Assembly: GCF_030378065.1 (NCBI RefSeq)
Contig: NZ_JAUCGJ010000022.1
Location: 1-63,442 of the forward strand
Direction of reading: 5' to 3'
Length of the DNA: 63,442 nucleotides
Origin: Candidatus Venteria ishoeyi
GTDB taxonomy: Bacteria; Pseudomonadota; Gammaproteobacteria; Beggiatoales; Beggiatoaceae
In this document: one piece after another, positions 7,417 through 12,737 of the stretch
How the letters are laid out: every line of letters starts with the position of its first letter
How positions within the stretch are numbered: the first letter of the stretch is position 1
Position numbers and translations under genes: made by a program
Notes under the pieces: generated by a model
What the model was told of the DNA's origin: nothing
The model's input: the letters and a program-made list of their open reading frames with translations, nothing else
Databases searched by the model: none

Positions 7417-9000
7417 CTATGAAATCTCTCTCACTTTACGCATTCCCAGACCTAGCACTAATAAAGACAATAAAATCATCGCCCATTCTGACAGGGTGGG
7501 AATTGAGGCTGCGGGATTATTGACTGTAGGCACTGGGGCAACGGCTTGTCCAGTCACAAATAAACGAAACAGTGGCATTGCCGGATCATTGCTTTGAAAT
7601 TGTAATCTACCGCTGAACTGTCCGATTGTTGTGGGACTAAATTGTACCCCAAAACGGCTGGTGCCTCCGGGGGTGATAGGCGTTTGTGGGAAGTTGACCA
7701 GTTGATAAGCCGCAGGCAGACTGGAATTACTGAGCACTAAATCAGCCGTGCCGGTGTTTTGCAGCGAGATTAATAAAGTTTGGCTGCCACCACTGGGCAG
7801 ACTGGCAAAGTTCAGGTTATCCACATCGCTGTTCAATGCTTGCCCATTACTGTTCAGTACCGTCAGTTTGGGCACTGTGCTGATAACGCTGCCTTGCAAA
7901 GATAGTTGAAACGGATTTTCATCCGGGTCATTATTATCCAGTTGCAAGTTCCCGGAAAATTGTCCAGCATTATTGGCATCCAGTTGCACGATTAAATCCA
8001 GACTGGCAGCAGATGCCAGCAACGTTGGCAGGGCGCTGGTATTTTGCAGGGAAAAGCCTGCAGGTAAAGTCAACTGACTCAGGTTCAAGTCCGCAGCACC
8101 AAGCCCAGCGCTGTTTTGCACCCGCAAAGTTTTTGTCAGTGGCTGGTTTTCAGGTGTGCTGCCAAAGTCAACAAGACTGCTGCCGCTGACTAAATCTGTA
8201 GCCCCATCAAATATCTGAATTTCAGCAGGAATGGTACTGAAACCACGTAAAAAAACCGCAGAATCAAAACTGGAATCACGCACATCGGCAACTGCCAGTT
8301 TCAGATGGTATTGATTGCCTGCCGTCAATGCCGTGGTGGCAGTTTGCAGGCGGGTAAAACCGTCATATTCAATCGCAAACGGAGCGACTTGATTGGCAAA
8401 ATCATTATAGTCATTATTAACAAATTCAGTGCTATTGCTGGTTTTATTAATACTGTTAATCGAAATATTGGTCAGATTGATTTTTTGAGTGGGGTTAGCG
8501 ATATCATGCAGAAAAAAACCAAAAACATCATTAAAATTGGAATTTACAAACTCATTATATTCTTCTGAGGCTAACAAATATTGGAAAGACAGATTGCTAC
8601 CCTGGGCGAGAAAGTCAAATTCCAATACTGCCGCATCGTAACTGCTGCCTGTTGTGGTTAAGTTATTGAGATCGCTATCCCCTGCACTATTAAAATTGGT
8701 TGTTTTACCACCGGAAAGGTTAGGGCCGCTGGCATCCTGGGTTTTGCCTGTACTCAGCACAATACCACTATCGATGTCCAGGCCGGAACTTGTCCCCTGA
8801 TTGAACACAGCCGCTGCTTCAGTCGCGCCATGATACTGGCATTGCGAAACCGAAGAACCGGCAAGGCAGGCTTGTGGGTCATTGAGCAGTTGCTGCACCA
8901 GGGTATTGGCTGTTTGCGGACTTAATATATCAAGCGCACTCGCCACGGGATTAAGTAAGGTTAAAAATATGGCTGTTAAAAAATATGCTATAGGTTTCAT
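7417..9000 (-). CDS. exported choice-of-anchor L / IPTL-CTERM protein
   Basis: 527-residue exported protein. It has a signal peptide (residues 1-22, cleavage near ASA), a choice-of-anchor L domain (about 25-240, including ASEEYNEFVN and DVFGFFL), then two choice-of-anchor D-type immunoglobulin-like repeats (about 245-480). It ends in an IPTL-CTERM sorting tail: IPTLSEWAM, a hydrophobic helix and a basic end. The tail is predicted to be recognised by an exosortase-type enzyme, giving surface attachment or release. AGGAA lies 9 bases before the ATG. Function is unknown; adhesion or a matrix role is plausible. It is divergent from the zinc-ribbon gene across a 139-bp intergenic region. Confidence 0.85.
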   Translation of the reverse strand: MKPIAYFLTAIFLTLLNPVASALDILSPQTANTLVQQLLNDPQACLAGSSVSQCQYHGATEAAAVFNQGTSSGLDIDSGIVLSTGKTQDASGPNLSGGKTTNFNSAGDSDLNNLTTTGSSYDAAVLEFDFLAQGSNLSFQYLLASEEYNEFVNSNFNDVFGFFLHDIANPTQKINLTNISINSINKTSNSTEFVNNDYNDFANQVAPFAIEYDGFTRLQTATTALTAGNQYHLKLAVADVRDSSFDSAVFLRGFSTIPAEIQIFDGATDLVSGSSLVDFGSTPENQPLTKTLRVQNSAGLGAADLNLSQLTLPAGFSLQNTSALPTLLASAASLDLIVQLDANNAGQFSGNLQLDNNDPDENPFQLSLQGSVISTVPKLTVLNSNGQALNSDVDNLNFASLPSGGSQTLLISLQNTGTADLVLSNSSLPAAYQLVNFPQTPITPGGTSRFGVQFSPTTIGQFSGRLQFQSNDPAMPLFRLFVTGQAVAPVPTVNNPAASIPTLSEWAMILLSLLVLGLGMRKVREIS

Positions 9001-9139: not shown

Positions 9140-10192
9140 ATGACAGAAAAACAGACAAAAACCTATGAAATGATGTGGGACTGTAAGTTTTGCGGCACCA
9201 CCAAGCTGCTGGGTAAAACGCATCGTTATTGTCCGGCCTGCGGCGCGGCGCAAGACCCGGAACAACGTTATTATCCCTCGGATCAGGATAAGGTTGCAGT
9301 TGAAGATCATCAGTTTATTGGTGCTGACAAGCTTTGTCAGGCTTGTGATACGCCAAATGCCGCCAATGTTGAGTTTTGTATCAGTTGCGGTTCGCCCATG
9401 AGCGAAGCGGCGCAGGCGAAAGTACGGGATTCACAGTTGCGTGCTACTGATGAAAGCTTCTCGGAAACACGTCAGGCTGATCAACTGACTGACCAGGCAA
9501 CAGCAGAAAAAGCACAATTGGCTGCGCAACAGGCAAAAAAGAAAAAACAAATCTGGATAATTGCCGGCGTAGCGGTGGTTATTGCTTTAATTGCCACATT
9601 TTTGCTGTGGAGCAAAGAAGTGACGGTGGAGTTGCAGCAACATCGTTGGGAATACAGTATACAAATCGAGCAATATCGCGCCCAGGCCAAAGCCAGTTGG
9701 TGTGATGCCATGCCACATGATGCTTATCGCATTAATCGCAGTGAAAAAGTGCGCAGCCATAAACAGGTAGCGGATGGTCAGGAATGCAGTATGCGCCGTA
9801 TTGATCAAGGTGATGGCACCTATCAGGAAAAACAGGAATGCCGCACCCGCTACCGTAAAGAACCCATTTATGATCAATATTGTAATTACCAGCTCAACCG
9901 TTGGGCGCACAACCGCGCTGCAACCAGCCAGGGACAGGATAAAAAACCACGCTGGGCCAGTTTTAAGCTGGCTTGTGGCGGTCAAAGACAAAGCCAGAAG
10001 CTGGGTTGTGAACGCGAAGGGCAGCGCTTGGCCCAGCATTATTTGATGCTCAGTGATAAGCAAAATGGTAAAACCTATCAATGCGAGGTGCAGCAAGCCT
10101 TGTGGCAACAGTCACAGCTTAAATCACGCTGGCATCTGGACATTAATCTTGCAGGTAGTCCACGTTGCGGCACTTTGGAGCCTTTAAGGTAA
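9140..10192 (+). CDS. membrane protein with two zinc ribbons, first gene of the borosin-like cluster
   Basis: 350 residues. Two cytosolic four-cysteine zinc ribbons come first (Cys15/18/31/34 and Cys66/69/80/83), followed by an Ala/Gln-rich linker, a single transmembrane helix (about 137-157) and a 190-residue C-terminal domain predicted outside. That domain has conserved-looking Trp, Tyr and Cys (for example IYDQYCNYQLNRW) and about seven cysteines that could form disulfides. I do not recognise a named family for the C-terminal domain. Its TAA stop overlaps the ATG of the methyltransferase gene by one base (TAATG), so the two are translationally coupled. The biochemical role is unknown. Confidence 0.7.
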   Translation: MTEKQTKTYEMMWDCKFCGTTKLLGKTHRYCPACGAAQDPEQRYYPSDQDKVAVEDHQFIGADKLCQACDTPNAANVEFCISCGSPMSEAAQAKVRDSQLRATDESFSETRQADQLTDQATAEKAQLAAQQAKKKKQIWIIAGVAVVIALIATFLLWSKEVTVELQQHRWEYSIQIEQYRAQAKASWCDAMPHDAYRINRSEKVRSHKQVADGQECSMRRIDQGDGTYQEKQECRTRYRKEPIYDQYCNYQLNRWAHNRAATSQGQDKKPRWASFKLACGGQRQSQKLGCEREGQRLAQHYLMLSDKQNGKTYQCEVQQALWQQSQLKSRWHLDINLAGSPRCGTLEPLR

Positions 10193-11724
10193 TGGATAAA
10201 AAAGGCAGTTTAATCGTCGCTGGCTCTGGCATAAAAAGTATTGCCCATATCACGCTGGAAACCCGCGCCTGGATACGTAGTGCAGATTTATTATTATATT
10301 GCGTTGCTGATCCGGCAACTGCCATCTGGCTGCGCAAACAGAATCCACGTTGCACTGATTTATCCGGCTTTTATCAGGATCAGCAGCCGCGTATACAAAC
10401 TTATCAAAACATGGCGCAATACATCATGCAGGAAGTACGGCGGGGGCAGCAAGTCTGTGTCGTGTTTTACGGTCATCCCGGCGTATTCAGTCTGCCGCCA
10501 CATTTAGCCATTGCCATGGCGCGCGCAGAGGGTTTTCCTGCCGCCATGCTGCCCGGCGTTTCTGCTGAAGATTGTTTGTTTGCCGATATTGGTTTTGACC
10601 CGGCAAACAGTGGTTGCCTGAGTCTGGAAAGTACGGAAATGCTGCTATGCAAACGGCAGTTGCCTACAGATATGCATGTGATTTTATGGCAACCCGGTAA
10701 TGTCGGTGAGCTGCATTATCAGGAAAAGACCCATGACAACCCGAATAAACAGGTATTGCTGGAATATTTGCAGCAGTTTTATCCGGCACAACATGCAATA
10801 TTTATTTACCAGGCCAGCCCTTATCCAGGCTGTCCGGCACAGATTGAATACCTGCCTTTAGCGCAATTACAACAGCGCAGCTTAGGTTCAATCAGCACCT
10901 TATACCTGCCGCCTGTATCGCCACCGCAGATTGATAAAAGCATGGCTGAAAAACTGGGTATAGCGTTAGAATCGCCCATACCTGAAAATAGTGAGCAAAC
11001 GCATAACAACTCAGCAACAGATGATGCCATCACGTTGAGCGCAATGACCAGTCATGCCTGCCCACCTGCTAAACAACCCTTGCCAGGTCGTAGCGCACTG
11101 ACAAATTTATTGGAAAATTTTGCTCTACAACCCGCATTACTTGCCGTATTACAACAGCAACCCACGGTAATACGTCTGGCAATGACACTGAATCAAACGG
11201 AATACCAAGCCATTTGCGATGCCAGTCCCAGCGCAGTTTATCAAGCTTTGTATCAGAGTGAGGCCATCACCTCCCAAACCAGCAATAATCTGGAAAAGCT
11301 GGAGCAGAGCAAGCCACAACAAACATCGCAAATGCAAATCAGCGTATCGGCACAACAGTTTTTTTATTTGCTTATTGCTCAAACAGATTTGGCTGCGGCT
11401 TATGCCGAAGTGACAGCGCAGGCGCAAATGTCAGAGCAAGCCGCGCAGTTGCTTGAACAGTGGTTACAGGAGCAAGGGCAGCAATGCAAGCCACAGGAGC
11501 TTTATGCCTGCTTAACATTACAACCCCATCATTTTTCCATACCGACACTGAATTATGTGCGCAAACTGATTAAAATGGCGACCTATGTGGCGCAAGGGGA
11601 GAAGTTGCCTGGTAGTGATTGGTACGATCTCATGGATATTTGGTTGGACATTTCCCGGAATCTTCGCCAGCATAAACACTTACAAGCGGCGATACCACAA
11701 CCGTTGGTTGTACGCAGTGAATAA
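10192..11724 (+). CDS. borosin-type peptide alpha-N-methyltransferase with fused leader-like domains
   Basis: 510 residues. Residues 5-240 form a tetrapyrrole-methylase-fold SAM methyltransferase. They match, from remembered family sequences, the fungal borosin enzyme OphMA closely: VFYGHPGVF (91-99) and LPGVSAEDCLFAD (120-132), and the catalytic Tyr/Arg/Tyr set corresponds to Tyr61, Arg67 and Tyr71. Borosin enzymes methylate backbone amides of a peptide. Residues about 301-355 resemble the borosin-binding/leader domain of OphMA and of Shewanella SonA. Residues about 383-441 look like a second, Nif11-like leader domain. A helical region and a short tail (IPQPLVVRSE) follow. In OphMA the substrate is the enzyme's own C-terminus, so self-modification is possible here, but the core is not identified. 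I start at ATG 10192, coupled to the upstream stop. A different tetrapyrrole methylase substrate is the alternative. Confidence 0.8.
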   Translation: MDKKGSLIVAGSGIKSIAHITLETRAWIRSADLLLYCVADPATAIWLRKQNPRCTDLSGFYQDQQPRIQTYQNMAQYIMQEVRRGQQVCVVFYGHPGVFSLPPHLAIAMARAEGFPAAMLPGVSAEDCLFADIGFDPANSGCLSLESTEMLLCKRQLPTDMHVILWQPGNVGELHYQEKTHDNPNKQVLLEYLQQFYPAQHAIFIYQASPYPGCPAQIEYLPLAQLQQRSLGSISTLYLPPVSPPQIDKSMAEKLGIALESPIPENSEQTHNNSATDDAITLSAMTSHACPPAKQPLPGRSALTNLLENFALQPALLAVLQQQPTVIRLAMTLNQTEYQAICDASPSAVYQALYQSEAITSQTSNNLEKLEQSKPQQTSQMQISVSAQQFFYLLIAQTDLAAAYAEVTAQAQMSEQAAQLLEQWLQEQGQQCKPQELYACLTLQPHHFSIPTLNYVRKLIKMATYVAQGEKLPGSDWYDLMDIWLDISRNLRQHKHLQAAIPQPLVVRSE

Positions 11725-11771: not shown

Positions 11772-12737
11772 ATGTCACTAAGCCCTGTAAAAATTAGATA
11801 TCTCATATTTTTTATTGCGATTATCGCTTGTTTGGGCGTGTTATTTTTCACTGGTCTGATTGAGTTCCCTTTTCAAGATTCCAAGCCCATCACCGTCGTT
11901 AAAGAAACCACGCAAAAAATTAAAAATAAAATTCCCTTTATCAAAAAAAAGAAAAAACCTGAACCTAAACCCGAGAAGCTGCCTAACAGTAATTTTCAGC
12001 TCAATGCACTCGATACCCAGTTAAATGATTTTCAAAATAAAATTCAGGTGCAGGCACAACTTTATCAAATTATACGCCTGCAAAATAAACAATTATTACG
12101 GCAATATGATGGACAACATAAAAATAATAAAACCCGTTATTATCAACCCGCTTGTAATCACGGCAACCCTAATGAAAGTTGTCAGAAACGCCGGAAAAAT
12201 CAGGTTTTAAAATTAGTTGCTGAGCTTATAAAATTCTCTAAAGTGGTAAGTGATCTGAGTCATAAACGAACCACGATAACTACAACATTGAAAGAAGCTG
12301 AGCAAATCCTCAATAATATGAGAAAGCAAATTCAACAGCAACAAGCGCAGGTTGAACAACGTCAACAGCAGTATGAAAAAAATCTGAATCTTGATCACGT
12401 ATTGGCAGAAAATTATGATACTTATCAGCAACATGTAAAAAATGCCATGATTACAGAAATGAATGAACAATTCCAGCGCTGGACTGAGTTTGATGAGCGT
12501 TTGGGCTATTTACAAAATAACCTTTATACCTACCAGCAACAACAAGAAATGTTATTAAATCTTATCAGTACTTTTGCACCAATTTTCCAGGAAGCCGCTA
12601 ATAGCGCAGCACTTTCACAGCAAACACGGCTTTCTCCAGAAACCAGTATTTTGCTTACGGATATGGAGCAGTTATTTCAAGATTTTGATGCCCAGCTTGG
12701 TTTATTGACAGGCCTTCCAGGTGCTGTTAAACCCTGA
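11772..12737 (+). CDS. single-pass coiled-coil membrane protein, third gene of the borosin-like cluster
   Basis: 321 residues. A transmembrane helix (about 9-28) is followed by a Lys/Pro-rich stretch (about 45-70), then a long Gln/Glu-rich helical region predicted as coiled coil (about 80-290), with two cysteines near 125-135. No family recognised. It lies 47 bases after the methyltransferase on the same strand with no obvious terminator, so cotranscription is likely. It may be a scaffold or envelope partner, by inference only. The base composition is more AT-rich than the two upstream genes, which may reflect a separate origin. Confidence 0.6.
   Translation: MSLSPVKIRYLIFFIAIIACLGVLFFTGLIEFPFQDSKPITVVKETTQKIKNKIPFIKKKKKPEPKPEKLPNSNFQLNALDTQLNDFQNKIQVQAQLYQIIRLQNKQLLRQYDGQHKNNKTRYYQPACNHGNPNESCQKRRKNQVLKLVAELIKFSKVVSDLSHKRTTITTTLKEAEQILNNMRKQIQQQQAQVEQRQQQYEKNLNLDHVLAENYDTYQQHVKNAMITEMNEQFQRWTEFDERLGYLQNNLYTYQQQQEMLLNLISTFAPIFQEAANSAALSQQTRLSPETSILLTDMEQLFQDFDAQLGLLTGLPGAVKP

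Follow-up and report, generated by a model that had tools for sequence, protein, structure and literature searches.

A fused borosin-type methyltransferase of Candidatus Venteria ishoeyi with a borosin-binding domain, a Nif11-like domain and a C-terminal tail in one chain

A gene of Candidatus Venteria ishoeyi (positions 10192..11724, + strand; ATG at 10192, stop at 11722-11724) encodes a protein of 510 residues that, judged from its sequence and a structure model, is almost certainly a borosin-type enzyme, a predicted peptide backbone α-N-methyltransferase. A borosin-binding domain (BBD) lies in cis behind the methyltransferase (MT) domain, and the less ordinary feature is what follows it, namely a Nif11-like domain and a tail. 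These 139 residues behind the BBD (372-510) are the unusual part of the protein and had gone unmentioned in an earlier sequence-only reading of this DNA. The explanation that we prefer, and consider somewhat likely, is a fused borosin that methylates its own C-terminal 139 residues, where the core would lie, most probably in the disordered end. Its enzyme family, its BBD, its membership in a group of fused enzymes and its extra domain are supported by computation. The window, that is the whole stretch of 63,442 nucleotides that we analysed, starts at the first base of its contig, the remainder of which is 4.2 kb; the draft assembly of the host comprises 4.41 Mb in 115 contigs.

The MT domain spans residues 1-260 (10192..10971, + strand), as delimited by PF00590, phmmer, AlphaFold pLDDT and superposition on OphMA. 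Pfam recognised TP_methylase (PF00590) alone on the 510-residue protein, at 67 bits against a cut-off of 27.8. A phmmer search of the PDB returned dbOphMA (3.6e-64), OphMA (1e-61 to 2e-60), MroMA (3e-61, with an alignment reaching residue 354 or 355 of the 510) and SonM (4e-53 to 1.5e-52), every borosin enzyme listed standing at or below 1.5e-52. All statements about structure refer to an AlphaFold model built from a 41-row alignment (mean pLDDT 80, pTM 0.70); a single-sequence model (pLDDT 37.5) was discarded. The MT domain is modelled with pLDDT block means of 84-98. VIA-align superposes it on OphMA with a Z of 34.3 and an rmsd of 1.3 over 257 residues, in rows that stop by residue 290, which is no evidence of a new fold beyond that point. 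Likewise, the SonM fold matches the MT domain with a TM-score of 0.94 on the SonM length, and Foldseek ranks MroMA and OphMA at the top with an rmsd near 15, a value that we ascribe to the OphMA clasp sitting on the other subunit.

A tetrapyrrole (cobalamin/sirohaem) methylase merely resembling a borosin enzyme would share the superfamily PF00590. In keeping with such a protein, NCBIfam matched YabN and cobalamin methylases, though weakly and far under their cut-offs, and siroheme synthase superposes with a Z of 19. However, the first non-borosin matches in the PDB, to a cobalamin enzyme and a siroheme synthase, had E-values of 0.07 and 0.81 respectively, the Z of 19 compares with 34 for OphMA, and two other tetrapyrrole methylases of the same genome fall outside the borosin enzymes in the tree described below, on very long branches. 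We therefore hold a tetrapyrrole methylase to be extremely improbable. OphMA, MroMA and SonM come out far ahead in the structure comparison that the sequence-only reading had proposed, and sequence, fold and tree all side with the borosin enzymes over the cobalamin and sirohaem methylases, bearing out its assignment of the protein to the borosin-type backbone N-methyltransferases.

That assignment had rested on a tetrapyrrole-methylase fold and on motifs that indeed lie where it placed them. VFYGHPGVF, LPGVSAEDCLFAD, Tyr61, Arg67 and Tyr71 all fall in an ungapped alignment to dbOphMA and OphMA. The three residues (codons 10372-10374, 10390-10392 and 10402-10404, together 10372..10404, + strand) correspond to Tyr66, Arg72 and Tyr76 of OphMA; an offset of 5 also fits the structure-alignment ranges and the mutant names. 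Of the 41 aligned rows, 36 retain Tyr61, 39 retain Arg67 and all 41 retain Tyr71, Tyr93, Ser124 and Gln167, so that the claimed match to the OphMA catalytic places stands. Ser58 is found where OphMA has Tyr63, and we count this against the self-methylating reading.

A linker of low confidence (residues 261-300, 10972..11091, + strand; pLDDT <50 at 269-293) leads to the BBD, the clasp part (residues 301-371, 11092..11304, + strand), delimited by phmmer, profile and model. The model confidently predicts its helices, five of them at residues 302-371, with pLDDT block means of 84-92 as far as residue 360 and of 72 over 361-370; the BBD of SonA is also described with five helices in the portion of PMC8429565 available to us. 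A profile made from ten other fused BBDs, with the query protein left out, scored 10.9 bits against residues 261-510 (aligned 296-349), compared with 7.7 for the best of 2000 shuffles, and gave E 0.0047 for the query protein among 82 proteins. By sequence the match is thus weak, and since the same holds for the Nif11-like domain described below, we count it against the preferred explanation. A profile that included the query protein found the OphMA clasp (dbOphMA 2.6e-13) and SonA (0.012) in the PDB. The suggestion that residues of about 301-355 resemble a BBD is consequently confirmed, weakly by sequence and through the five modelled helices, and the clasp fold is retained. Searched up to E 10, the draft genome yielded no second BBD (profile including the query) and no other copy of the Nif11-like domain, so no trans precursor carrying either was found. 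The separate BBD-core precursor that marks split type IV borosins is absent at that threshold, and the earlier statement that no separate precursor lies nearby holds for BBD precursors.

We examined relatives in several samples. A scan of genome contigs matched at least 591 stretches, with at least 568 relatives; the 81 loci considered here are the best-scoring 80 of these at least 568 plus one viral contig, and are thus a biased sample. Twelve of the 81 encode the enzyme and a C-terminal BBD in a single ORF (ten of the 12 are rows of the BBD profile); in 36 the BBD stands ahead of the enzyme or on a different ORF (E 0.01 or better), and 33 show none at E 0.01. A tree by a quick method, with SH-aLRT and without bootstrap, was built from the first 285 residues of 87 rows, comprising 78 of the 81 relatives (L062, L081 and L093 were left out), five others, the query, dbOphMA and the two tetrapyrrole methylases of the host genome. 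All 14 fused rows form one group, with the query and fungal dbOphMA inside it (SH-aLRT 95). Within this group the branching around the query is without resolved order, the nearest rows by path being L021 and L022; the quick method and this unsettled branching count against the preferred explanation. Split enzymes of Thioploca type, from the host's own family, group among cyanobacterial ones and apart from the query, which suggests that the fused gene was probably not derived from the split gene of the family.

Of the 369 genomes in the class sample, 10 match at 1e-10, the host included, and in the other nine the best match ends by residue 273. In the family sample the matches (4 of 42 genomes) are the host's own, two short ORFs that are 47% identical to the query over residues 4-259, and one fragment; the order-level search gave the same set. 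Phages gave no match, plasmids gave 13 matching records with none covering 80% of the query, and viral contigs gave none by single protein and one (L101) by alignment. Two Thioploca-type genomes carry an MT without a BBD (L018 5306-6151, L019 5494-6273), with no BBD found in the surrounding 12 kb, between genes that we take to be ffh-like and recC-like. At L020 (1-4000) an MT-family fragment lies upstream of another gene, presumably a RiPP radical-SAM enzyme, and at L093 (6004-7626) two MT domains stand in tandem in one ORF. The fused MT-BBD protein of L060 (5968-7647) ends in long near-identical ATEEHV/DASEEH repeats, a run that is possibly a repetitive acidic core.

The Nif11-like domain, hereafter X (residues 385-442, 11344..11517, + strand; profile and model), has four predicted helices, with pLDDT block means of 63-78 for residues 391-440 and 52 for 381-390. 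X was first spotted from the DNA beside L021, where the start of the downstream ORF resembles residues 385-442. A profile including the query found, untrained, the ORF directly after the L022 enzyme (1.4e-11). The profile without the query scored 14.9 bits (aligned 386-436), the highest of 2000 shuffles reaching 10.9, and gave E 0.00089 for the query protein among 82 proteins, and single-sequence comparisons with these relatives were not significant. The evidence, though modest, points to a weak but detectable kinship between X and the Nif11-like domain of the relatives. The name derives from one of six X members, presumably that of L022, which matches Pfam Nif11 (PF07862) at 7.5e-5; the whole L022 protein reaches 17.9 bits, under the cut-off of 23.8. 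One of the six also matches NCBIfam leader_Nif11 at 0.041, and the X of the query itself matches neither family. The Pfam Death domain gave a weak match to X (0.037).

Of the 12 fused relatives whose genomes were searched, five have X, each as a single copy at the borosin locus, and all five are profile rows; the remaining seven have none at E 0.1. Across the phylum sample one of 398 genomes has it, the host's own, excluding a match (3.5e-4) that was set aside because its ORF looks like another enzyme, which we take to be a 5-formyl-THF cyclo-ligase. Also set aside were matches of the X profile to CagY (6.2e-9 and 7.6e-9), in which no single stretch passes; we take this CagY to be a repetitive protein of 1927 residues. 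An ORF of 81 residues in a family genome, the top single-sequence match to X (3.4e-4) and a match to residues 357-510 at 9.3e-4, was taken as chance, and the gene beside it presumably encodes a VapC-type toxin.

The C-terminal tail (residues 443-510, 11518..11721, + strand; AlphaFold model) is our proposed core site. It is modelled as two low-confidence helices (450-468 and 474-492) followed by a disordered end. Residues 352-510 and 287-510 matched nothing above cut-off in Pfam or NCBIfam, and residues 287-510 gave nothing below E 0.9 in the PDB; the weak C-terminal matches were Pfam Clostridium_P47 (0.036 and 0.071) and clathrin (0.94, PDB). The core of omphalotin is a long hydrophobic run. 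On reading residues 372-510 we recognised no core peptide, the tail having neither a hydrophobic run of this kind nor acidic/Val repeats like those of type III, and the alternation of acidic and other residues that marks type III is not seen anywhere in this stretch. We count the absence of a recognisable core against a core in cis. Furthermore, a narrow Val/Thr/acidic repeat pattern is missing from every frame of the window.

The loci of several fused relatives carry putative cores on separate proteins. At L021 (Methylumidiphilus) and L022 (Azorhizobium), the closest tree rows by path, the enzyme has the MT-BBD order of the query, but the Nif11-like domain starts a separate downstream protein, a putative precursor (L021 3223-4899, L022 2684-4417) that continues in beta repeats (W.G.YG...GP..VV) and has TTDV/TTEV tracts towards its end. 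L029 (an alphaproteobacterium), L030 (Burkholderia arboris) and L031 (Sphingomonas) have MT-BBD-X in one chain like the query, but the chain ends soon after X, without the 68-residue tail. Their downstream beta-repeat protein, likewise a putative precursor (L030 7363-8289, L031 7395-8327), lacks X; for L030 and L031 we could read its (TTEV)n tract. The gene boundary thus comes either before or after the Nif11-like domain, which sits on the putative precursor in L021/L022 and on the enzyme in L029-L031 and in the query. A gene 49-61% identical among the three loci follows the beta-repeat protein (L029 8295-8960, L030 about 8333-8950, L031 8324-9010); the L031 copy has a weak match to PhyH dioxygenase, below cut-off, and the gene may encode a further tailoring enzyme.

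The likely core on a separate protein in L029-L031 argues for a trans core in the query too. It would then be a class 2 borosin, an MT-BBD-Nif11-like enzyme with its core on a separate protein elsewhere in the genome, akin to the beta-repeat/(TTEV)n proteins next to L029-L031, and we give this alternative substantial weight while thinking it less than likely. Besides L029-L031, the loci in which X itself sits on the separate beta-repeat protein (L021/L022) favour it, as does a class, described in the part of PMC11395268 available to us, in which MT and BBD share a chain and the core has a different one. Against it, neither a beta-repeat protein nor an acidic/Val/Thr tract matching the search pattern was found in the window or in the remaining 4.2 kb of the contig, and the query has a 68-residue tail after X that L029-L031 lack. 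A more specific form of the preferred explanation, a self-methylating borosin with BBD and Nif11-like leader in one chain and a core of a new kind within the 68-residue tail, is tentative, and we put it forward with considerable doubt; taken with L021/L022 and L029-L031, it would picture a leader moving between precursor and enzyme.

The genes around the MT gene bear on a third alternative. Its start codon shares bases with the stop codon of the gene upstream (TAATG, 10190-10194), AAGG lies just 5', and the next gene begins 47 bases 3' of the MT gene, an arrangement that makes a three-gene operon likely. The protein of the upstream gene (9140..10192, + strand) matches zinc ribbons weakly and, read from its sequence, has a membrane helix. 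The downstream gene (11772..12737, + strand), possibly of the same operon, encodes a 321-residue protein with an N-terminal membrane helix and a coiled coil, both read from the sequence, and matches no family above cut-off. Neither a protease nor a transporter nor any further RiPP gene was recognised when the three adjacent genes were scanned, which we count against a self-methylating core in cis. The upstream gene is present in 11 of the 42 family genomes, the host's own counted; in the eight relatives' loci that were opened it adjoins other genes, and an MT-like ORF is absent. Promoter-like sites number 13 against 7.5 expected and terminator-like sites 6 against 5.3 expected. Elsewhere in the window, a gene on the - strand (7417-9000) encodes a Choice-of-anchor L/D protein with an IPTL-CTERM sorting signal. 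The adjacent genes without recognised RiPP function, the other neighbours of the upstream gene in relatives and the tail without a convincing match behind X would all suit a core or partner that has been lost or replaced, leaving an MT that acts on another protein, for example an operon neighbour, or a relic. Yet the frame is open over 510 codons and the active-site residues, BBD and X are all kept, and we regard such a loss as improbable.

According to the preferred explanation, a fused borosin with its core in cis, residues 1-260 would act as a SAM-dependent peptide backbone (α-N) methyltransferase. OphMA forms a head-to-tail dimer in which the BBD of each subunit wraps around its partner. 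By analogy, the query protein would dimerise head to tail with each BBD holding the partner, and such wrapping would feed the chain behind the BBD into the partner's active site, where the backbone amides of the core would be methylated one after another. The core would lie in cis within residues 372-510, most likely in the flexible stretch that ends the chain behind X, and might later be cleaved off. Dimer, activity, core site and cleavage are proposed here from the behaviour of known borosins.

Peptides gain stability and membrane permeability when their backbone is N-methylated, and enzymes that modify themselves serve as tools for producing peptides of this kind. A bacterial fused enzyme that groups with a fungal one bears on the origin of the fungal omphalotin-type genes, and a movable Nif11-like domain offers a natural experiment on the role of a leader that has become part of the enzyme.

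The fungal enzymes OphMA, dbOphMA and MroMA resemble the query in their MT domain, active-site residues and BBD, C-terminal in one chain. Their chains close with a short core not far behind the BBD, whereas in the query a helical domain and the 68-residue tail follow, and Ser58 takes the place of Tyr63 of OphMA. SonM and SonA, a split type IV pair (PMC8429565, as far as available to us), share the MT fold and the BBD with the query, but SonA is a separate precursor and the BBD of the query is in cis. Borosins of types 0 to XI in four classes are described in the available part of PMC11395268, including KchMA, a bacterial fused borosin of type III that is reported to methylate itself. The idea in the sequence-only reading that enzyme and BBD in one bacterial chain might mark a new borosin type therefore finds no support, since KchMA is published and 12 of the 81 best-scoring relatives are built alike. 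The MT-BBD-Nif11-like arrangement appeared in none of the titles and abstracts searched, a set that lies outside the type V-X papers; three papers contain both 'borosin' and 'Nif11', each naming borosin once. KchMA is likened to the query by its description alone, as a bacterial fused borosin; it differs in being longer, its modified residues lying at 742-796, and in its described type III core of alternating acidic and other residues (PMC11395268, available part). The same source, to the extent available, describes 'cluster 4' fused borosins with about 160 residues after a potential core, and the query, with about 140 residues after its BBD, could belong to this cluster, to which it is likened by description only.
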